43,499 nucleotides of DNA from Campylobacteraceae bacterium. GTDB taxonomy: Bacteria > Campylobacterota > Campylobacteria > Campylobacterales > Sulfurovaceae. Every line of letters begins with the position of its first letter. Position 1 is the first letter of the stretch. The stretch is from assembly GCA_027024155.1 (NCBI GenBank), contig JALVTE010000035.1, forward strand, positions 1 through 43,499. Reading direction: 5' to 3'. The notes under the pieces were generated by a model. It was given only the letters and a program-made list of their open reading frames with translations. It had not been told where the DNA came from and did no database searches. This document shows positions 18,842-43,312 of the stretch, in pieces. Both the position numbers and the translations under genes were made by a program.

Positions 18842-21256
18842 ATGACTAATATCTATATATGGATTGTAGTAGCTCTGTTGCTTTTTTATGGCTCAAGAAT
18901 TATTGGCTTTATAAGTTTATTAAAAATTAAAGTATTGTCAGATTTTCCAGTAGATTTTATTACTAGAAAAGATGTAGATAGTAAGGTATTAAAGAGTATA
19001 TCGCCATATGAAAATTATCTTTTCGAGCAGGGGTTTAGGCTTGATTATATTGTTACATATAGTAATTTAGTAGTTGGTCAAGATTTGCTTTTTCATAGTT
19101 TTATCTACTATAACCCAAAAAATGGCGTGATTGCAACTTTAAATACTCAGCCTCACAAAAATGCTTTAGAGCCTGTAGCTATAAATTTCTATACATTTTA
19201 TGATGATGGAACACTTTGCTGGAGTATGAATGGGCATAAGTTTTACTATCCTGCATTTTCTGATAATTTTTATGTTTATGATGACTATTTAGCTAATTGG
19301 AAAGATATTTATAGTAAGCATTTAGAGCATATGCAAAAAGATGGAAAGGTTATAATAAACCAGCCATTTACTAAAAAAGATGTAGTAGATTTTATAGACT
19401 ATTTTCATAAAAGTAATATAGATGAGCAGGCGAAGAGAGGTTATATAAAATTAACAGATAAGTACTATACATACAAGCCATCTATAAAACTTTGGAGCTT
19501 TGTTAAAGAGTTGCAAAGTGGCTACAGAAGGTATAGAAAAATTTTAAGTAGTGCTAATGTTGATAAGGTTAATGGTAGCGAGATTGGATGCAAAAATGCT
19601 CTTTTAAATCAGTTGGAGAATTTTGATAAATCTAAAATAAAAAACTCAAATAGTTGGGTTGCTTTTTTTATATCTGGAGTTGTTTTTATCTCTCTGTTTA
19701 TGCTTATGGGTAGCACTTTTAGCTATATTGTAAATTTAATAATTGTGCTTTTGGTTCATGAACTTGGGCACTTTTTGGCTATGCGGTTTTTTGGATATAG
19801 TGATACAAGTATCTTCTTTTTACCATTTGGCGCGGCTACCACTGGGCAGAAGAGAGAGAAAAAGGCTTATGAAGAGTTTATAGTTTTGCTGGCTGGTCCA
19901 CTGCCTGGAATTATTATAGGTATTGTTTTGTGGCTTAGTGCTGGGCACTTTGGAAAGTATGGGCATTTTGCAATGGAGTATGCACTTATCTCTATAGTTA
20001 TAAATTATCTAAATTTGCTACCTATATATCCACTAGATGGTGGTAGAATTGTAGAGACACTACTGCTTTTACGATACCCAAAAGTGCAATTTTACTTTTA
20101 TATAATTGGGCTTCTTGCTCTAACTGTGGCAATGATTGCATTTAGAGATGCTTTGCTATTTATTTTTGTAGTAATAATCGCATTAGGGCTTGGGCAGAGT
20201 TATAAAGTCTCCAAACTTTTAAGTAAATTAAAAAAAGAGAATATGCTTTCGCATGATGGCGTTGTTACTGTTTTGTGTGAAGATAAAGAGTTTAAAGCCA
20301 ACGATTTAAATACAAAAGTTACAGTTGCACAACGGGCACTATCTATTTTAAATACTGCTAAGGCTGGTAAGTTTTTTACTATTTTGGCTTTTGCCTTTTA
20401 CTTACTGCTTTTAACTCCAATAGTGTTTATAAGCACAAACTATTTAGCCACTCTTAGCACACCATACAGTAAATTAAATAAGGCAGAGAGAAAAGAGATT
20501 AGCGATTTTTATGCTAAACTTTTTAAGTACGATAAGATAAGTGTGCCTCCTAACAAGAGCTTTGATATAGATAGTTCTATTAAGAGTTTAGAGGGTTATT
20601 TTAAAGAGAATAATATTACCCAAAACACACCAATTAAAGGTGATTTAAAAGTATCTGCTTACCCTTGTAAAATTCCAGATAGTTTGCAAAAAGTTTTAAA
20701 GTGGCATAATGGGGTTTTATTTGTAGGTAATGTAAATTTGTATAGTGATAAAGAGATTAAAAAATATTTACAAATCTCTCAAAAAAGTAGAGATTTTGAT
20801 AAAAAGTATTTGCCTATTGGAGTGTTAGACGATGAAGATGAACTATATATTAACTGTAAAGATGGGGCAATTTATGAGTATTATGATAAACCTACAAAAC
20901 TGTATTACAGTTTAGAGCATCTACTAGCTATTTGGGCTAAAGCGTATGATAATAAAGTAGCTACTATAGATAGCAAAAGATATGAGATAAATTACAATAA
21001 ACTTACAAAGATAGAGCATGAATTTTTATCAAAAGAGGATAAAGCCATTCGCGAAAAGAAGATTGCATATATTAATAAAAAAGCGTTAGAGTATCTAAAG
21101 GGCAATGTAGACTACTTTAAGTTAATGGTATTAAGGGCAATGGAGAGAGATTTAAGTACTAGATATATCGATACTTTGAAGCTATATACTAAAGATAAGA
21201 GTAAAAAAGTAGCAACTTTAGCAAAGAATATTTTGAAAGATGCTTTGGCTAATTAG
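18842..21256 (+). CDS. M50-family membrane metalloprotease with a C-terminal SMI1/KNR4 (SUKH)-like domain
   Basis: The 804-residue protein starts with a membrane helix (5-24), then an extramembrane domain (about 30-270). The site-2-protease core has VHELGHFLAMRFFG (zinc HExxH near 306-310), LLAGPLPGIIIG, and NLLPIYPLDGGR (second zinc site near 397-402), within several membrane helices. After two more helices the C-terminal part (about 590-705) resembles the SMI1/KNR4 or SUKH fold: IPDSLQKVLKWHNG, YLPIGVLDDEDELYINCKDG, YYSLEHLLAIWAKA. A helical tail follows. Intramembrane cleavage is likely; substrate unknown. The SUKH assignment is from pattern alone. Confidence 0.75.
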   Translation: MTNIYIWIVVALLLFYGSRIIGFISLLKIKVLSDFPVDFITRKDVDSKVLKSISPYENYLFEQGFRLDYIVTYSNLVVGQDLLFHSFIYYNPKNGVIATLNTQPHKNALEPVAINFYTFYDDGTLCWSMNGHKFYYPAFSDNFYVYDDYLANWKDIYSKHLEHMQKDGKVIINQPFTKKDVVDFIDYFHKSNIDEQAKRGYIKLTDKYYTYKPSIKLWSFVKELQSGYRRYRKILSSANVDKVNGSEIGCKNALLNQLENFDKSKIKNSNSWVAFFISGVVFISLFMLMGSTFSYIVNLIIVLLVHELGHFLAMRFFGYSDTSIFFLPFGAATTGQKREKKAYEEFIVLLAGPLPGIIIGIVLWLSAGHFGKYGHFAMEYALISIVINYLNLLPIYPLDGGRIVETLLLLRYPKVQFYFYIIGLLALTVAMIAFRDALLFIFVVIIALGLGQSYKVSKLLSKLKKENMLSHDGVVTVLCEDKEFKANDLNTKVTVAQRALSILNTAKAGKFFTILAFAFYLLLLTPIVFISTNYLATLSTPYSKLNKAERKEISDFYAKLFKYDKISVPPNKSFDIDSSIKSLEGYFKENNITQNTPIKGDLKVSAYPCKIPDSLQKVLKWHNGVLFVGNVNLYSDKEIKKYLQISQKSRDFDKKYLPIGVLDDEDELYINCKDGAIYEYYDKPTKLYYSLEHLLAIWAKAYDNKVATIDSKRYEINYNKLTKIEHEFLSKEDKAIREKKIAYINKKALEYLKGNVDYFKLMVLRAMERDLSTRYIDTLKLYTKDKSKKVATLAKNILKDALAN

Positions 21257-35965: not shown

Positions 35966-36125
35966 ATAATTGCCTTTTTTAGTAACAATTATATGTATGA
36001 AAATGAAAACAAGATGAAAACTAAAAAAACCACTTCGGCAATAGTGCCTATATTGATTTTGGAGCTAAATTGCAAGTGCTTATTTTATATATTTTTATTT
36101 TCAAAAAACTTTATCTCTATTTCGC

Positions 36126-36131
36126 TATAAT
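36126..36131 (+). promoter_or_regulatory. Likely -10 of the FtsK-type cluster
   Basis: TATAAT lies 35 bases before the ATG at 36166 and is preceded by an A/T-rich run with no clear -35. It also sits in the 200-base divergent space between the phosphatase and the FtsK-type gene. Confidence 0.4.
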
Positions 36132-36165
36132 AAATGAAAGCAATAAAGAAAAGGGAAACTCTGAA

Positions 36166-37899
36166 ATGCCAATTAAAAACCAATCTTTCCCATGGGGAAT
36201 TTACATAGGCGACCTAACAGACAACATCGACAACATACCACTATGTTTAGATAGTAAACAGGGTGGTTTTTGTGTTCTATTTGATGATAGCAGTGAACAG
36301 ATAGCCAATAACTTTATAGAGAATATCGCACTAAAGCTTTTTGAAGTGTTACCTATTGGAGATATAGTTGTAGATATTTTTGATTTTTCACACAAAAAAA
36401 GATTTATGCACCTCTCTTCACTCCAAAAAGAGAAGCTTTATGATATTGCTTTTAATCAAAACTCGGCTACCAATAAATTTAACACTATAGAAGAGATAGC
36501 TCTAAACCGACATCATACTATTCTTGACTTTGCTACACCTACTATTTCAGATTATAATCAACAGAGTAAATTTAAAGAGCAGTATCATCTGCTTCTTATA
36601 AACTTAGACTCTTTTCCTGATGAGATGACTTCACAAAAGAGGGTCAAAAACTTTTTTGATTCGGCTTTTGAGGCAGGGTTTTATGCTATTGCTTTTGGAA
36701 ATCAAGAGGTATTGAAAAGTGAATCAAAAGCTACACAAGCCATTTTAAACCACTTTTCACATCTAAATATAGTAAACAAAAAGATAAAACTTAGTAAAGA
36801 GCTTTTTGCATTTACAAATTTAATAGAAAATTACGAGTTTGAATATGTCAATGATAACAAAGATAAAATCATTAAAAATCTATTAGCCAAGTTAGTAAAA
36901 GAGGATAACTCTAGTGGAGAAAAAGATTTTTTATCTGCTCCTATTGGTACTTCTAAAAATGGTAGAGATACCATCTATTTTACTATGGGAGATAAATCGG
37001 ATAATTATCATGCGTTTATTACAGGAGTTACAGGTTCAGGGAAGACCACACTTTTAAATAACATCATTACAAGTATTGCCCAGAAATATACCTCTGATGA
37101 GATTCAACTCTATCTTATGGATTACAAAGATGGTGTAGAGTTTCAACTCTTTAAAAATCATCCAAATTGTAAAAAGATATTTTTAGACAATGAAGATTTA
37201 GAAGCATCTATCTCTTTACTAGAGGAGTTTAGAGATACTATGAGAAGTCGTGCAACCATATTTAAACAGTATGAGGTTAATAACATAACAGCTTATAACA
37301 AACTCAACCCTCAAAAACCAATGCCAAGGATTGTGCTTATTATAGATGAGGTGCATAAGCTTTTTGTGGGAGATTATGGTTATGTAGAAAGATTTAGCTC
37401 TATCTTAAAACCTCTTATGCGTCAAGGTCGCTCTTATGGTGTGCATATTATATTTGCTACCCAATCTTTAGCAGGTACACAGATAGACCGTGAGTTAATG
37501 GGGCAGATAACACTTAGAGTATCATTTAAACTAACTGACCCTAGTGATAGTGAAACCATCTTTACCTATGGCAATACAGAGGCTCTAAATCTTGAAAAGT
37601 ATGAGCTGATTTATAATAACAATGCAGGAAACAAAAGAGATAATCTTCTTTGTAGGGCAAATCCTCCTTTAGATATAAAGAGTGTGATAGATGATGTGTT
37701 GTTTTTAAGAGAAGAGAGGTTGATTTTGAAACCTGTGATTGTGAAGAGTAAAGAGAAAAAAGAAGAAGAGGTTGTGGAAGTGAAAGAGAGAGCAAAATCT
37801 ACTTTTAAAAGTAAGTTTGGTACAAGTGCAGAAGATGATATGTTGGCTAAAATTGAGAAAGAGAGGGGAATAACTCCTAATTATGGAGGTGTGGAATGA
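36166..37899 (+). CDS. FtsK/SpoIIIE-type ATPase
   Basis: The 577-residue protein has a 280-residue N-terminal region without membrane helices and an FtsK/SpoIIIE ATPase domain: Walker A GVTGSGKTT (287-295), DYKDGVEFQ (about 319-327), Walker B IVLIIDE (389-395) and the sensor ATQSL (431-435), followed by DRELMGQITLRVSFK. The early PIGTSKNGRDTIYF segment is typical of EssC/FtsK-like proteins. The lack of membrane anchors separates it from cell-division FtsK. The ATG at 36166 was chosen over 36070 because AAGGGA precedes it. It overlaps the next gene by 4 bp. It probably drives transport or remodelling of DNA or protein for this cluster; the target is unknown. Confidence 0.85.
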   Translation: MPIKNQSFPWGIYIGDLTDNIDNIPLCLDSKQGGFCVLFDDSSEQIANNFIENIALKLFEVLPIGDIVVDIFDFSHKKRFMHLSSLQKEKLYDIAFNQNSATNKFNTIEEIALNRHHTILDFATPTISDYNQQSKFKEQYHLLLINLDSFPDEMTSQKRVKNFFDSAFEAGFYAIAFGNQEVLKSESKATQAILNHFSHLNIVNKKIKLSKELFAFTNLIENYEFEYVNDNKDKIIKNLLAKLVKEDNSSGEKDFLSAPIGTSKNGRDTIYFTMGDKSDNYHAFITGVTGSGKTTLLNNIITSIAQKYTSDEIQLYLMDYKDGVEFQLFKNHPNCKKIFLDNEDLEASISLLEEFRDTMRSRATIFKQYEVNNITAYNKLNPQKPMPRIVLIIDEVHKLFVGDYGYVERFSSILKPLMRQGRSYGVHIIFATQSLAGTQIDRELMGQITLRVSFKLTDPSDSETIFTYGNTEALNLEKYELIYNNNAGNKRDNLLCRANPPLDIKSVIDDVLFLREERLILKPVIVKSKEKKEEEVVEVKERAKSTFKSKFGTSAEDDMLAKIEKERGITPNYGGVE

Positions 37900-39893
37900 G
37901 TCAATCTCTTTTAAATATGAATTATCGTGAAACTTTAGATAATGTTGATAGTTATGAGGAGTATTTATCTAGCATTAAAGATACTTTAGATACTCAAGAA
38001 TGGAAAAAAGCTTTAAGTATAGATACTCAATATGCTTATAAAAATTATCTTTATAAATATTCTAATGGAGTTTATAAAGATAAAGCTCAAAAGAAAATAG
38101 ATTATTTTATTAAAATTGAAGCTAAAGAGGCTGATAAGAGAGCTTGGGAAAAGGCTAAGAAAAAGAACAGTAAAAAATCTTATGAAAAATATTTGATGAG
38201 TTATTATAATGGTATTTATAGTCATGAAGCTAAGAGAAAAGTAGATGAGTTTATTAGGTTAGAAAAAGAAGAGCATAGACTTGCAGTAGCTAAAGAGAAA
38301 GAAACTTGGGAACTTGTTTGCAGAAAAGATACTAAAGAAGATTATAAAAATTATTTAAAATTTTATCCTAATGGAATTTATTATAATGAAGCCAAAAAGA
38401 AAATTAAACACATAAAGTTTAATGAAGATGTCGAAGCTTGGTCAAAAGCATGTCTTAAAAATACATATACAGAATATATAAAATATTGTCAAAATTTTCC
38501 AAATGGTATTCAATTTGAAGAAGCTGAACGAAAAGCTACACTTTTATATAAAGAGCTTACTCCAAAAACCAATTATTCAGGACAAAGATTATTTACTTTT
38601 CAAAAAAATGGTAAGTATGGTGTAGTTGATATAACTGATAAAATTATTTTAAAAGCACAATATAATCAAATAGAATTTATTGGAAATAGATATATCTTAG
38701 TTCATTCAGACGGATATAAACAAGGATTATATAGCACAAGTGGAAAAGAGATAATTGCCTTAGGTGATTATGATTTAAGAGTAGATGGTGATGGATATAA
38801 AACTGAAATTGAAAAAGAAGATAATCCACATGATTATTATACATTTGCTACTATTTCTTATAATAAACAATGGATTGACAATTCAAGTTTTATGAAAATG
38901 TTTGATTCTTCAGTGATTAAAATAATAGATATAAAAAATGATACATTTGGTTATATCTATAAAAATAATGATGAATTAATTCTAGAACCTATATATAAAA
39001 ATATTGAATTAATTAAGAGTGGAGTAGGAATTATACGGACTAGAAATGATAAATATGGCTTAATTAATAAACAATATAGAATAATTTTAGAACCTAAATA
39101 TGATTTAATTATAACTCACAACCCTTATGATATATTTATTGTGAGTATATTTGACAATAAAGATAATTCTATTAGTGGACTTGTTAATTTGAAGGGAGAA
39201 ATAGTTATTCCTTGTATTTTTGATTGGATTGAAACATTAGATAATGGTTGTTTTATAGCCCATAAGAATGAGAAAGGTAACATTTTAATAAACTCTTATG
39301 GAGAAAAAATCACCAACTATTATACTCACATAACTTACTTAAAAAAAGAGAAAATATTTTTAATCGAGGATAATGATAAGTTTGGTTTCACCAATACCAA
39401 AGGGAAAATAACTATTGAACCAGAACTTGATGAAGTGTATAGTGGTAATTTTAGTTCATATGGACACAAACCCAATGATACAAGCCATAAATATCTTTTT
39501 TTTAATGATATAGAAGAACCAATAAAAGTAAAAAAAGACAATAAGTATGGTTTTATCGACAAAAGAGGGAGTTATCTCTTATATCCAAAATATAACTATA
39601 TTAGTTATCAAGAATATATATCTAAAAATGTATATTTATATCTAATTGCAGAGGATTCAAATGGATATAAAAAAGGATTTCTTATATATAATAATGGTAA
39701 AACGACTACAGTATTTAGTAAAACTATAGACATAACATATATTAATTTATTAAATAAAAATTTAATAGAGTTTAGTGATACTGCATTTGGAAGAGGTATT
39801 AGTACAATAGATGGAAAGATATTATTAGAATCTACAAATCCTATATCCTATAAATTTAAAAAGAATAAAATTATTGAAGAGTATAAAAAATGA
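37896..39893 (+). CDS. WG-repeat protein with N-terminal helical repeats
   Basis: The 665-residue protein has two repeat regions. Residues about 33-215 hold four helical units of roughly 45 residues, with consensus W-x2-A-x6-Y-x2-Y, then PNG/YNG-Y-x2-EA. Residues about 230-640 hold at least six WG (KWG)-type units (NGKYGVVDITDKIILKAQY, DKYGLINKQYRIILEPKY, DKFGFTNTKGKITIEPEL, NKYGFIDKRGSYLLYPKY). These probably form a beta-rich, solenoid-like binding surface. It has no signal peptide or membrane helix. WG-repeat proteins are widespread and mostly of unknown role. It overlaps its neighbours by 4 bp on each side (ATGA), so translation is coupled to the FtsK-type and next genes. Confidence 0.8.
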   Translation: MSQSLLNMNYRETLDNVDSYEEYLSSIKDTLDTQEWKKALSIDTQYAYKNYLYKYSNGVYKDKAQKKIDYFIKIEAKEADKRAWEKAKKKNSKKSYEKYLMSYYNGIYSHEAKRKVDEFIRLEKEEHRLAVAKEKETWELVCRKDTKEDYKNYLKFYPNGIYYNEAKKKIKHIKFNEDVEAWSKACLKNTYTEYIKYCQNFPNGIQFEEAERKATLLYKELTPKTNYSGQRLFTFQKNGKYGVVDITDKIILKAQYNQIEFIGNRYILVHSDGYKQGLYSTSGKEIIALGDYDLRVDGDGYKTEIEKEDNPHDYYTFATISYNKQWIDNSSFMKMFDSSVIKIIDIKNDTFGYIYKNNDELILEPIYKNIELIKSGVGIIRTRNDKYGLINKQYRIILEPKYDLIITHNPYDIFIVSIFDNKDNSISGLVNLKGEIVIPCIFDWIETLDNGCFIAHKNEKGNILINSYGEKITNYYTHITYLKKEKIFLIEDNDKFGFTNTKGKITIEPELDEVYSGNFSSYGHKPNDTSHKYLFFNDIEEPIKVKKDNKYGFIDKRGSYLLYPKYNYISYQEYISKNVYLYLIAEDSNGYKKGFLIYNNGKTTTVFSKTIDITYINLLNKNLIEFSDTAFGRGISTIDGKILLESTNPISYKFKKNKIIEEYKK

Positions 39894-40219
39894 CAAAGCA
39901 AAAACTATTTGGCAAACTAAAAAACAAAGGTATTTTTTGGTCATACTCCCAAGATTTAACTTATGAAAAAGCAGGAGACAAGCTCTTTTTAGAGTACCTT
40001 TTAAAATATGGAGATTTTGATGATTTGATAGTAGCTTTTAAATTATATCCAAAAGAAGAGATAAAATCTGTATGGGAAGAGAGATTAAAAGATGATAAGA
40101 GGTTTATAAAATTAAACCTTATGTTGGCAAGACTCTTTTTTGGTATGAATGTTGAGAGTAGTTATTTTAAGGAGATAAAAAGTGCAAGATTTGAAAAACT
40201 TAAAATGTTTGCTTCCTAA
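39890..40219 (+). CDS. Small protein preceding an AbiEii toxin, DUF6922-like antitoxin candidate
   Basis: The 109-residue protein starts MTKQKLFGKLKNKGIFWSYS and is mostly helical, with FKLYPKEEIKSVWEERLKDD and a Leu/Phe-rich end. The layout (a protein of about 100 residues just before an AbiEii gene, beginning with FWSYS-type residues) is that of the DUF6922 family, which pairs with AbiEii toxins; the assignment is from memory of the pattern. It overlaps the preceding gene by 4 bp and the AbiEii gene by 38 bp. Confidence 0.6.
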   Translation: MTKQKLFGKLKNKGIFWSYSQDLTYEKAGDKLFLEYLLKYGDFDDLIVAFKLYPKEEIKSVWEERLKDDKRFIKLNLMLARLFFGMNVESSYFKEIKSARFEKLKMFAS

Positions 40220-40817
40220 AACAGAGACTCTGCTTTTAAAGATGGTACAGGAGTGTGGCTTTCTTGAAAAGTATGTGCTTGTTGGTGGTTCTGCATTGGC
40301 TCTTTATGTTTGTCATAGAAAGAGTGAAGATTTAGACTTTTTTACTTATGATGATAGTTTTGATAAAAAAGAGATTTTTGAGTATATTCAAGGTTTTGAA
40401 AATAAAGAGGTGCTTCATCAGAGTGATGAACAGATAGATGTCTTACTTAATGGTGTAAAAGTTACTTTTTTTAATGCAAAGTGGAAGTTTTTGAAACCTC
40501 AGAAAGTAGAAAAGTTTAACCTTGCTTCTCTTGAATCTATCTCTGCAATGAAAGTAAATGTAATGTTTTTAAGAGCTAAATATCGTGACTATTATGATTT
40601 ATATTTTTTAGTCAAAGAGGGTATGAGCTTAAAAGAGATTTTTGAACATAGTCAAAATATTGTAGAGGGGATTAATTTTAAACTTTTTGCTATTGCTTTG
40701 CTCTATATTGATGATATTGAAGATGACAATATAGAGTATCTTGAACCGATAGATAGAATATCAAAAGAGAAGATACGAGACTTTTTTGAAGCTAGATTAA
40801 ATAAGATGGTGGTATAA
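40182..40817 (+). CDS. AbiEii/AbiGii-type nucleotidyltransferase
   Basis: The 211-residue protein has the nucleotidyltransferase signature VGGSALALY (about 34-42) followed by RKSEDLDFFTYD, giving the G-S and D-x-D metal-binding residues, and a later conserved KVNVMFLRAKYRDYYDLYFLV. AbiEii toxins of type IV toxin-antitoxin and abortive infection systems carry this domain and modify tRNA. The start is GTG, with AAGGAG at a good distance, inside the upstream gene. It is placed within a tightly packed cluster, so it may act as a module of a larger system rather than alone. Confidence 0.8.
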   Translation: MQDLKNLKCLLPKTETLLLKMVQECGFLEKYVLVGGSALALYVCHRKSEDLDFFTYDDSFDKKEIFEYIQGFENKEVLHQSDEQIDVLLNGVKVTFFNAKWKFLKPQKVEKFNLASLESISAMKVNVMFLRAKYRDYYDLYFLVKEGMSLKEIFEHSQNIVEGINFKLFAIALLYIDDIEDDNIEYLEPIDRISKEKIRDFFEARLNKMVV

Positions 40818-40819
40818 AG

Positions 40820-41362
40820 ATGGCTGATATATTTAAAATTTATAGTGGAGACTACTCAAAAGAGGGTTATGACCAAGGCATAGAAGATAGAAAAGCAAAT
40901 GAGCCTAAAAACAAGTTTAAGTTTTTTAAAGCGGTTCACCCAATAAATTATATTTGGGCTTTTAATAATGCTTTTGATAGCTTTAATAAGAACTATGATA
41001 AAGGTTATCTTGATGGTCAAAGAGTTGAACACAATATCTATAGTTCGTCAAATCAAACAAAAGGAGCAAGTGTGCAAAAAGACAACTATGAAAACCATAT
41101 ACGAATGCTAAATAATTTTCAAGAAAAATTATTAGAACTTAAACGAAAAATACAAGAGATAAGAGAGCAGTATAAAAAGCAGATTGATGTAATGGAGAGT
41201 GCAGGTTTTGTGGAGAATATTATTGAACCTTTGAGAAGTAAGTATCAAATCTTTTCATCTAAAATAGATGATATAGATAGACAACTAGCACAACATGACC
41301 AAAAAATAGAGATGCAAACAGAAGCTTTAAATACTCTTAGAGCAATAGCAAGGAGCAACTAA
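40820..41362 (+). CDS. Coiled-coil protein with helical-hairpin C-terminal half
   Basis: The 180-residue protein has an N-terminal part (1-75) rich in Tyr/Asp/Lys/Asn (YDQGIEDRKANEPKNKFKFF) with a second similar segment (YDKGYLDGQR), then a long coiled coil (about 88-175) broken at GFVENI. The second half has the pattern Y-x4-hD-x3-x2-G-(F/Y)-(V/M)-x2-hh that also occurs in the next gene product. It shares no recognised domain beyond that. It overlaps the next gene by one base (TAATG). Confidence 0.6.
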   Translation: MADIFKIYSGDYSKEGYDQGIEDRKANEPKNKFKFFKAVHPINYIWAFNNAFDSFNKNYDKGYLDGQRVEHNIYSSSNQTKGASVQKDNYENHIRMLNNFQEKLLELKRKIQEIREQYKKQIDVMESAGFVENIIEPLRSKYQIFSSKIDDIDRQLAQHDQKIEMQTEALNTLRAIARSN

Positions 41363-41667
41363 TGGAGAATAATGATAGATTACAAAGTTTGGCAAATCAG
41401 TTAGGTTGGTGTAGAACTACTAAAGATTATCTTATTGAATTAAATGGAAAACTACACTCTGTGGCTACAAACTATCAAAATACTTTAGACGAACTTAGAA
41501 ACAGAGGGTACATGGCTGATCTGCTACCCCAAATAGAAGAGATGAATAGAGAGTTTCAGGAGATGAGCAGTGATTTGGTAGGGCATATAGAAAGAGAGCA
41601 TTTAGCTTATATTGATAAACAGAGTGTAGGGATTCGTGGAGCTTTAGAGAAGATTATGGGGAGTTGA
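41362..41667 (+). CDS. Small two-helix protein resembling ESAT-6/WXG100 hairpins
   Basis: The 101-residue protein is all-helical: helix 1 (about 5-45), a turn at RNRGYMADLL (about 47-56), helix 2 (about 57-95). Length and hairpin shape match WXG100 proteins, but the W-x-G turn is replaced by R-G-Y-M. It is colinear with the second half of the preceding protein. An FtsK-type ATPase in the same cluster is reminiscent of the EssC-WXG100 partnership in type VII secretion, but no membrane components are present, so a secretion role is speculative. Confidence 0.55.
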   Translation: MENNDRLQSLANQLGWCRTTKDYLIELNGKLHSVATNYQNTLDELRNRGYMADLLPQIEEMNREFQEMSSDLVGHIEREHLAYIDKQSVGIRGALEKIMGS

Positions 41668-41944
41668 AAAAATAAGAGAAATAAGTATTGTGCGATGAGC
41701 TTTCATTTTCGTATGTTGTAATCGAAGTGATAATTTAAGGTAACAAGGATAGATAAACTGGGAAGACGACACATACCTTTACAAAGGTTTTAGCAATTTA
41801 GATATAGAAGAGAGGGTAGAAATTTATAACGCGGTACTGTTTATACTTAGATAGATTGTAAAAATATAGTAAATTTCACCTAATCATAATTATCGTTTTG
41901 ATATTATAATAATCTAAAAACTATTAAATATCAAAAGGTTAAAT
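41668..41944 (+). other. Gap holding a degenerate gene fragment
   Basis: This 277-base gap has no intact gene. From 41756 to 41851 the plus strand encodes 32 protein-like codons (NWEDDTYLYKGFSNLDIEER at the start, then VEIYNAVLF) without a start codon, between stops at 41750 and 41852. It looks like the remains of a gene, family not recognised. A TATAAT-type -10 (41914) and AAAAGG before 41945 are likely the start signals of the next gene. Confidence 0.35.
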
Positions 41945-43312
41945 ATGTTCGTCAATCGTCAAAAAGAGTTAAAAATATTAGAAGAGGAGTATACAAATCT
42001 TGGTTTTAGATTTACTGTACTCTATGGACGACGACGAGTAGGTAAAACGACTCTCATAAAAGAGTATATTTCCTCTAAACCATACATTTATTTTTTAGTA
42101 ACACTTGAAGCACTACCTATTGTATTACGGCGTTTTCAAAATTTAGTAGTTGATTTTTTAGAAGATGAGTTTCTAAGAGAGATTGAGTTAAAGAGTTTTG
42201 AACAGATTTTTTCCTATTTAGCCAAACAGAACCTCCCTAAAAAAGTGGTGGTGGTGATTGATGAGTTTCAATATCTTGGAAAGCTTGATAAATCTATCCC
42301 CTCTCAGTTTCAATATATTGTCGATGAGATACTCAAAAGTAAAAATATCCATTTGCTACTTTGTGGCTCTATCATCTCTATGATGTATGAACAGACACTC
42401 TCTTACAGTTCGCCTCTTTATGGACGGCGAACGAGTGGTATTAAACTTGATGCTTTGAGTTTTGAGTATTTAGGGGCTTTTTTTCCTACTAAAAATGAGA
42501 TTGAGCTTATTGAACTCTATGCTGTTTTGTATGGTGTGCCTAAGTATCTGGAGTTGTTTAAAGATAGTGGTGATATTTTTGAAGCTATAGAGAGAAATAT
42601 TTTAGATAAAAATGCTTTTCTCTATGAAGAGCCTAGATTTATTTTGCAAAATGAGGTCAATGAACCGATGACCTACTTTACCATTTTAGAGACTATCGCC
42701 AATGGAGAGCATAAGTTAGGCAATATTGCAGGAAAGTTAAATAAAAATGTTCAAAATATCACTTCCTTTATAAGTAAACTAATTGAGTTAGAGCTTATCT
42801 ATAAAGAGGTTCCTGTTACTGAAAAGCTTCCAAACAAAAGCAAAAAGGGACTCTACTTTATCAAAGATAACTTTTTTAGATTTTGGTTCTCTTATGTTCT
42901 GCCTTATAGAAGTCAGTTAGAGTTGGGCAATACCAACTATGCTATGGTTAAAATAAAAGAGAACTTTTCAGGCTTTGTTGCAAAGGTTTATGAAGATTTA
43001 TCGGTAGAGTATGTACTTAAAAACTATCCTCTTTTAAAGGCAGGTCGTTGGTGGAGCAAAGATGAAGAGATAGATGTGGTAGGAGTAAGTGAAGAGTTTC
43101 TCTTGGTGGGTGAGTGCAAATACTCAAATAAAAAAGTAGGCGTAGATATACTTGAAAGTTTAGAGAGAAAAAGTAAGAAGATAGAGTTAAAGCTACCTAT
43201 TAAGCACTATCTTCTTTTTTCTAAGAGTGGGTTTACTAACTATTTATTAGAAGTTGAGAAAGATAGAGATGATGTTGTTTTGGTAAGTGCCTTAGCACCT
43301 GTCTATAAATAA
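41945..43312 (+). CDS. AAA-type ATPase with DUF234-like C-terminal nuclease-like domain
   Basis: The 455-residue protein starts MFVNRQKELKILEEEY and has Walker A LYGRRRVGKTTLI (about 27-39), Walker B VVVVIDEFQYL (about 101-111) and a winged-helix-like region (about 230-290). The C-terminal part (about 310-455) contains EIDVVGVSEEFLLVGECKYS, a PD-(D/E)XK-like core (E-I-D-V and E-C-K). This is the ATPase_2/DUF234 family of bacteria and archaea, linked with mobile elements; its function is unknown. AAAAGG precedes the ATG. It may be part of the accessory block or a separate insertion. Confidence 0.85.
   Translation: MFVNRQKELKILEEEYTNLGFRFTVLYGRRRVGKTTLIKEYISSKPYIYFLVTLEALPIVLRRFQNLVVDFLEDEFLREIELKSFEQIFSYLAKQNLPKKVVVVIDEFQYLGKLDKSIPSQFQYIVDEILKSKNIHLLLCGSIISMMYEQTLSYSSPLYGRRTSGIKLDALSFEYLGAFFPTKNEIELIELYAVLYGVPKYLELFKDSGDIFEAIERNILDKNAFLYEEPRFILQNEVNEPMTYFTILETIANGEHKLGNIAGKLNKNVQNITSFISKLIELELIYKEVPVTEKLPNKSKKGLYFIKDNFFRFWFSYVLPYRSQLELGNTNYAMVKIKENFSGFVAKVYEDLSVEYVLKNYPLLKAGRWWSKDEEIDVVGVSEEFLLVGECKYSNKKVGVDILESLERKSKKIELKLPIKHYLLFSKSGFTNYLLEVEKDRDDVVLVSALAPVYK

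Follow-up and report, generated by a model that had tools for sequence, protein, structure and literature searches.

A patchy Sulfurovaceae operon combines an FtsK/EccC-type ATPase and paired helical hairpins with domains exchanged as cassettes

Results

Layout of the operon

The window analyzed here is a stretch of 43,499 nucleotides of contig JALVTE010000035.1 (assembly GCA_027024155.1) from a Campylobacteraceae bacterium of the Sulfurovaceae, a 2.15-Mb draft genome of 123 contigs whose nearest named relatives are Sulfurovum/Campylobacteraceae bins. At positions 36166-41667 it carries an operon of six genes, for an FtsK-type ATPase, a repeat protein, an AbiE-like pair, a coiled-coil protein and a small helical hairpin, which an initial annotation had taken for one joint machine. 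All six open reading frames were found on the + strand, exactly where that annotation had placed them and with the four overlaps and one 2-bp gap it described, and their interpretation as a single transcription unit is supported. The features are listed below, with labels that anticipate the comparison with relatives.

36119..36165, +, shared leader with a conserved GCTATAATAAAT box, itself the promoter-like -10 (conservation among relatives)
36166..37899, +, core gene 1, 577-aa soluble two-domain FtsK/EccC-type ATPase (domain, profile and fold comparisons)
37896-37899, +, gene 1/gene 2 junction, 4-bp overlap
37896..37991, +, constant N-terminal tag of gene 2, motif NxNYxELLdxvxsYxEY (block test)
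37992..38540, +, gene-2 helical repeats, WxxAxxxNSxxxYxxYLxxYxNGxYxxEAxxK (sequence)
38541..39893, +, swap slot 1, WG-repeat domain of gene 2 (domain calls, DNA mosaics)
39890-39893, +, gene 2/gene 3 junction, 4-bp overlap
39890..40219, +, passenger gene 3, 109 aa, partner of the AbiEii protein (weakly DUF6922-like)
40182-40219, +, gene 3/gene 4 junction, 38-bp overlap
40182..40817, +, passenger gene 4, AbiEii-type nucleotidyltransferase (domain call)
40818-40819, +, gene 4/gene 5 junction, 2-bp gap
40820..41062, +, swap slot 2, gene-5 N-terminal GYxxG...GYxDG domain (DNA mosaics, domain calls)
41063..41362, +, core helical hairpin 1, C-terminal part of gene 5 (profile comparison)
41362, +, gene 5/gene 6 junction, 1-bp overlap
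41362..41667, +, core gene 6, helical hairpin 2, 101 aa, conserved EHLxYI motif (profile, model)

DNA likeness to relatives opens at about 36106-36123, at the GCTATAATAAAT box just 5' of the gene-1 ATG, and closes at the gene-6 stop codon (41667-41668). The box is found in the window and in loci L002, L003 and L004, and L079 and L080 have closely similar versions of it; the promoter-like reading of the leader rests on this conservation, since a promoter scan gave matches no more than about 1.6 standard deviations above chance. An RNA-family scan returned tRNA only, far from the operon, and neither a recombinase nor end repeats were found at the borders of the Campylobacterota copies.

Ratios of nonsynonymous to synonymous substitution (dN/dS) were estimated pairwise and without a tree, with synonymous divergence saturated in some pairs; for the window they cover genes 1, 3, 4, 5 and 6, the gene-2 body having no homolog in the aligned loci. 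Against L003, the window gave 0.17 for the ATPase, 0.22 for gene 3, 0.09 for gene 4, 0.49 for hairpin 1 and 0.10 for gene 6; the gene-5 N-terminal domain gave 0.08 against L079, and the leucine-rich repeat (LRR) slot 0.33 between L002 and L004. Because the window values lie at 0.09-0.49 (0.08 for the N-terminal part of gene 5), the gene set is not a product of chance, and by these estimates the core genes are under purifying selection.

Distribution and cassette swaps

The loci read for comparison, some of them partial, were L002 (genome G536), L003 (G018), L004 and L079 (both G550), L005 (G547), the truncated L006 (G524), the broken L080 (G515) and L007 of Chitinilyticum. Of 175 Sulfurovaceae genomes, 7 encode the two-domain ATPase, at eight loci, and none of the 11 other genomes of the window's genus does; the hairpin profile reaches 10 of the 175, including remnants without a detectable ATPase (L118-L121). 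Among 399 genomes drawn from the order, the sole further match was a 33-residue fragment in G634, probably a chance match or a remnant. The census covers Campylobacterota well and other phyla through one exact-pattern scan; since every genome is a draft, and many of them are bins, the absences and gene breaks are in part assembly effects. Scans of viral contigs with gene 6, the hairpin alignment and the ATPase alignment found no relative. Plasmids and phages returned ATPase-domain matches only, with no full-length relative of the window ATPase, and plasmids gave no match for the gene-5 N-terminus and a single chance-level match for gene 6. The full six-gene set recurs in two other genomes (L002 and L003), and insertion sites differ among loci; the recurrence of the genes together and the accessory, patchy nature of the locus are both supported.

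What varies between loci is given below, as the C-terminal part of gene 2, then the genes in the place of the AbiE pair, then the N-terminal part of hairpin 1.

Window: WG repeats; AbiE pair; GYxDG domain
L002: LRR; AbiE pair; short segment; stops in the ATPase and hairpin 1
L003: Lcl_C; AbiE pair; short segment
L004: LRR, afterwards cut by an insertion
L005: 130-aa gene 2 without known domain; no pair; no N-terminal domain on hairpin 1
L079: membrane segment; UPF0175 and DUF3368 PIN; GYxDG domain
L080: LRR, broken; PIN-like, by reading; GYxDG domain, degraded
L119: ATPase and gene 2 gone; Fic-like gene; HNH
L120: ATPase gone; Fic, nucleotidyltransferase and gene-3 remnant; GYxDG domain
L007: hairpin 2', ATPase, hairpin 1, hairpin 2, FGE protein; caspase-FGE protein 3.4 kb beyond

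The DNA alignments place the borders of this variation. Against L002, identity is 94.5% over 36119-38270, absent to 39886, 93.5% over 39886-40793, absent again to 41060, and 76% to 41668; the first break falls in gene 2, where an LRR domain replaces the WG repeats, and the second where the gene-5 N-terminus is replaced. Against L003, the corresponding values are 86% over 36106-37889, none to 39874, 91% to 40829, none to 41051 and 78% to 41667, and all alignments end at the gene-6 stop codon or close before it. Given such closely related flanking DNA and such sharp borders, gene 2 (all of it or its C-terminal part) and the gene-5 N-terminus are replaced as units. This cassette swapping in genes 2 and 5, as read from the alignments, is our main result, and it is invisible from a single sequence. 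What is constant is a core of the ATPase and two mutually related hairpins, not one six-part machine.

A two-domain, membrane-free ATPase

The gene-1 start at the ATG at 36166 is backed by relatives, which do not conserve a longer TTG start at 36070. The protein carries an FtsK_SpoIIIE domain (E=9.7e-24) and divides into domains D1 (about residues 3-242) and D2 (about 250-480). Walker A (GVTGSGKT, at 287) and Walker B (LIIDE) occur once each, both in D2, and since D1 has neither, we read D1 as a degenerate copy and D2 as intact and active. The solved structures closest in sequence are YukB, EccC and EccC5, and a fold search with the gene-1 model ranked the EccC cytoplasmic domain first (2.2e-18, both halves aligned), the model being only moderately confident (predicted local distance difference test, pLDDT, 73) and its two-domain TM-scores low. 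Curated type VII secretion system (T7SS) models likewise recognize gene 1, at scores under their cut-offs, which marks the ATPase as related and not as an equivalog. No hydrophobic segment is long enough for a membrane anchor: the highest 19-residue hydropathy, 1.74, falls within a predicted amphipathic helix of D1. The description of gene 1 as a soluble FtsK-type ATPase of 577 residues was accordingly correct. Membrane proteins and channel genes are also missing among the six genes of the operon.

The closest parallel lies in the ATPases of mobile FtsK/WXG100 modules, to which D1 and D2 align with an hhalign probability of 100 (E=1.1e-45). The alignment to these 823-aa, three-domain relatives stops after D2, and the third ATPase domain is missing from gene 1.

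Two solitary forms of D1 were also seen. A free-standing 264-aa homolog with 36-43% identity (L061-L077, e.g., L063:7305-8099) occurs once in each of about 22 Sulfurovaceae genomes, never adjoining the two-domain ATPase; its neighbors are often ordinary genes, a polynucleotide phosphorylase-like gene among them, and it has no Pfam or PHROG match. At L013:397-2238 (-) in G011, D1 is fused directly to helical repeats of the same kind and LRR; an active ATPase is lacking, and core and sensor are combined in one protein.

Paired hairpins and the second swap slot

Gene 5 is a coiled-coil protein, as had been noted, and the model of gene 6 shows two helices, at residues 2-48 and 55-99, folded into a clean hairpin (pLDDT 85). 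Hairpins 1 and 2 are homologous to each other (hhalign probability 87%), and hydropathy indicates no transmembrane segment in either. The label "WXG100-like" given to gene 6 stands for its hairpin shape but not for its family: Pfam finds no WXG100 match in the hairpins, and membership was rejected by profile comparison with WXG100 rows, at a probability of 8-11%. A fold search returned many generic helical hairpins, none significant; the T7SS partner protein LapD2 was among the better TM-scores (0.75), but with E=1.1.

Elsewhere, the second slot holds an HNH nuclease, a short segment or nothing. The nuclease, at L119:7671-8303, is fused to the hairpin-1 N-terminus at the same border as the GYxDG domain in other loci.

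A constant tag before exchangeable domains

The gene-2 tag motif is kept across the WG, LRR, Lcl_C and membrane variants, and its block score of 383 exceeds the maxima of 164 from 300 shuffles and 143 from 400 background sets. The motif is short and its leave-one-out profile weak, recovering two or three of six members, and we therefore rely on the block test for it; part of its signal is simple common descent. The helical repeats that follow recur in L002, L004 and L013, and the L007 caspase protein has them too. With WG repeats also detected (E=1.1e-16), gene 2 is indeed the WG/helical-repeat protein that had been proposed. In other loci, slot 1 holds LRR, Lcl_C or a membrane segment, or is empty. 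The Chitinilyticum FGE protein did not match the tag profile, and its placement in slot 1 consequently relies on neighborhood and domain type.

In the Chitinilyticum locus (L007:9381-20897), the core stands downstream of a phage-type integrase and has three neighbors: the FGE protein (FGE/C-lectin domain), a zinc-ribbon protein and a caspase-repeat-FGE protein of 1344 aa.

The AbiE pair as passenger

The claim of an AbiE-like pair held for gene 4, which matches AbiEii (E=7.3e-14), but not for gene 3, which is not recognizable as AbiEi: its best match is DUF6922, below cut-off at E=0.052, and PADLOC returns nothing for it. AbiEii relatives occur in 21 of 175 Sulfurovaceae genomes, mostly without the ATPase, which is found in 7. 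The pair lies inside the operon in three genomes, between unrelated genes in L124-L126, and is absent from L005 and L007; in L079, a UPF0175 and DUF3368 PIN pair stands in its place, and a remnant of gene 3 survives in L120. The AbiEii gene of G009, 93% identical, adjoins a remnant of the gene-5 N-terminus, which marks that copy as a decayed locus. Since the pair occurs alone and other toxin-antitoxin types hold the same place elsewhere, its distribution identifies it as a passenger, both a frequent inhabitant of the operon and a free module, and the idea that it forms part of the machine is not supported. The recurrence of different types at this place in L079, L080 and L120 suggests that the toxin-antitoxin pair probably only stabilizes the locus.

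Across L079, L080, L119 and L120, genes of UPF0175/PIN, PIN-like, Fic and nucleotidyltransferase type gather immediately upstream of hairpin 1.

Neighboring genes

No other genome of the genus has the left neighbor gene of the operon. To the right, at 41945-43312, lies an ATPase_2/DUF234 protein that matches the phage-defense candidate PDC-S27 and has a 42% relative directly downstream of the core in L079. It was considered as a seventh member and rejected, being present in 27 of 175 genomes, mostly unlinked, and standing outside the homologous DNA block. Farther off, at 18842-21253, a protein of 804 aa that has an M50 peptidase domain and matches SMI1/KNR4 at borderline strength is encoded upstream of a denitrification-type gene set.

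Discussion

We suggest, with confidence and doubt in about equal measure, that the operon encodes a mobile, membrane-free relative of the type VII motor that has been reworked into an intracellular sensor-effector conflict module. From what is known of its family, the ATPase would form a hexamer, on which the hairpin pair would act as an adaptor; the constant tag would dock gene 2 onto this ATPase-hairpin core, and the WG, LRR or lectin-fold domain would recognize an invader or foreign molecule inside the cell. An ATP-driven rearrangement would then release or activate an effector, most plausibly a domain fused to hairpin 1, such as the HNH nuclease of one relative, or a membrane-active gene-2 variant. 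A defining feature of polymorphic conflict systems, a constant region followed by a swapped domain at a defined border, is present in the DNA mosaics and the tag. The proposal also draws on the range of gene-2 C-termini and the FGE protein next to the Chitinilyticum core, HNH on hairpin 1 in L119, the homology of the ATPase to mobile FtsK/WXG100 modules and its fold match to EccC, the kinship of the two hairpins, the lack of transmembrane segments in ATPase and hairpins, the patchy distribution, and the published use of FGS lectin folds as invader sensors (PMC8195603). Several observations weigh against this proposal. The left flank of the operon is ordinary metabolism, and no clear defense island surrounds it in the window; apart from AbiEii, a passenger, no toxin is recognizable in the window copy; the HNH fusion was seen only once, at a locus whose ATPase is gone; and L005 keeps the core with a gene 2 of no known domain. 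The conflict or defense role that had been assigned to the locus is plausible.

The main rival to intracellular sensing is export: a stripped-down, Gram-negative type VII-like exporter whose ATPase and hairpins would export gene-2 proteins and toxin-hairpin fusions for competition or adhesion. We regard this as possible but the less probable of the two. Of the solved structures, EccC/EssC come closest to the ATPase, T7SS models resemble it, paired hairpins with variable domains on a constant tag recall WXG/LXG effectors, the Helicobacter relatives have a coiled-coil HNH toxin with an immunity-like gene, and published authors favor secretion for related modules (PMC11090510). Membrane anchor and membrane partner gene are, however, both missing, as are the third ATPase domain and the WXG100 signature of the hairpins, and the domains exchanged on gene 2 are recognition folds and not toxins, with no adjoining immunity gene. 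It is the lack of any membrane part, together with these recognition folds, that leads us to prefer intracellular sensing over export.

It is unlikely that the locus is instead a selfish or addiction island, retained by its toxin-antitoxin modules, with the core genes as passengers or as components of a DNA-mobility device. The variety of toxin-antitoxin types in a single place, varying insertion sites and many decayed copies (L080, L118-L121) would fit such an island, but L005 and L007 retain the core without any toxin-antitoxin pair, the core genes are under purifying selection, and the Campylobacterota borders show no recombinase or end repeats. The six-component, AbiE-containing defense system first proposed has very little left in its favor beyond the occurrence of the pair within the same operon in three genomes, and the gene distribution already contradicts it, with the pair also found alone (up to 93% identical, L126), the core found without it in L005, L007 and L079, and relatives that keep the ATPase and hairpins while exchanging or dropping the rest.

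A bolder possibility, which we put forward tentatively and by analogy with receptor-swapping immune NTPases, is that the operon represents a new class of intracellular immune machine, in which a type VII motor freed from the membrane and its hairpins would form a switch read by exchangeable receptors (WG, LRR, C-lectin fold). If the sensor-effector reading is right, a type VII motor and hairpin pair can work free of the membrane and without WXG100 proteins, and is combined with exchangeable recognition domains, the hallmark of immune receptors.

Comparison with known systems

The initial annotation knew of no named system with this gene set. This holds insofar as no single PADLOC system matches the core proteins, with partial matches to the ATPase domain and AbiEii only, but membrane-free EssC/YueA-like FtsK and solo WXG100 modules have been described (PMC3482391, PMC4978471, PMC11090510), and the ATPase aligns with theirs over two domains.

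With the AbiE type IV toxin-antitoxin systems the operon shares the AbiEii match of gene 4; it differs in lacking a recognizable AbiEi and in that the pair is separable from the operon. The likeness to type VII secretion (EssC/EccC, EsxA/EsxB) extends to the ATPase family, the tandem domain fold and the paired hairpins of about 100 residues. Unlike those systems, the window copy has no membrane segments, FHA domain, third ATPase domain, membrane partner genes or WXG motif. A constant core with exchangeable recognition or effector domains also characterizes FGS/lectin-fold and repeat-based conflict systems (PMC7159879, PMC8195603), whose FGS lectin folds have been proposed as invader sensors (PMC8195603), and the Chitinilyticum copy has FGE and caspase genes beside it. 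In contrast to these systems, the core NTPase is of FtsK/EccC type with hairpins and not MoxR-vWA, STAND or another of their named cores, and none of their named components was found in the window copy. From polymorphic toxins the window copy departs in that its swap slots hold no toxin domain with an adjacent immunity gene.

Membrane-free FtsK/WXG100 modules are known as the "WXG100 secretion system" and TerY-P island of H. pylori (PMC4978471) and as CoCoNuT extensions with a coiled-coil nuclease, for which the authors lean toward secretion (PMC11090510). We compared loci from Helicobacter (L024, L026-L033) and a Caballeronia plasmid (L023), whose WXG100 proteins match HP0062 and EsxA. In Helicobacter L026-L033, a three-domain FtsK is accompanied by a WXG100 protein, a coiled-coil HNH toxin and an immunity-like gene, and in L030, L031 and L033 the module lies directly beside urease-operon-like genes. 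Like these modules (HP0062-HP0066; CoCoNuT III-A/TerY-P extensions), the operon has an ATPase without transmembrane segments, with an inactive D1 and an active D2, and small helical hairpins encoded beside it, and it is patchy and mobile in epsilon- and beta-proteobacteria. It differs in gene order, in having two ATPase domains where theirs have three, the third inactive, in the absence of a WXG100 signature from both hairpins, and in carrying a polymorphic recognition protein in place of a coiled-coil nuclease with its immunity gene; a coiled-coil fused to a nuclease is absent from the window, and one relative (L119) has HNH on hairpin 1. The operon hence plausibly works like the FtsK/WXG100 modules, yet it lacks two of their defining features, the third ATPase domain and WXG100. 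If our reading is right, it offers a small operon in which to probe what membrane-free FtsK/WXG100 modules do, including the widely conserved one of H. pylori.

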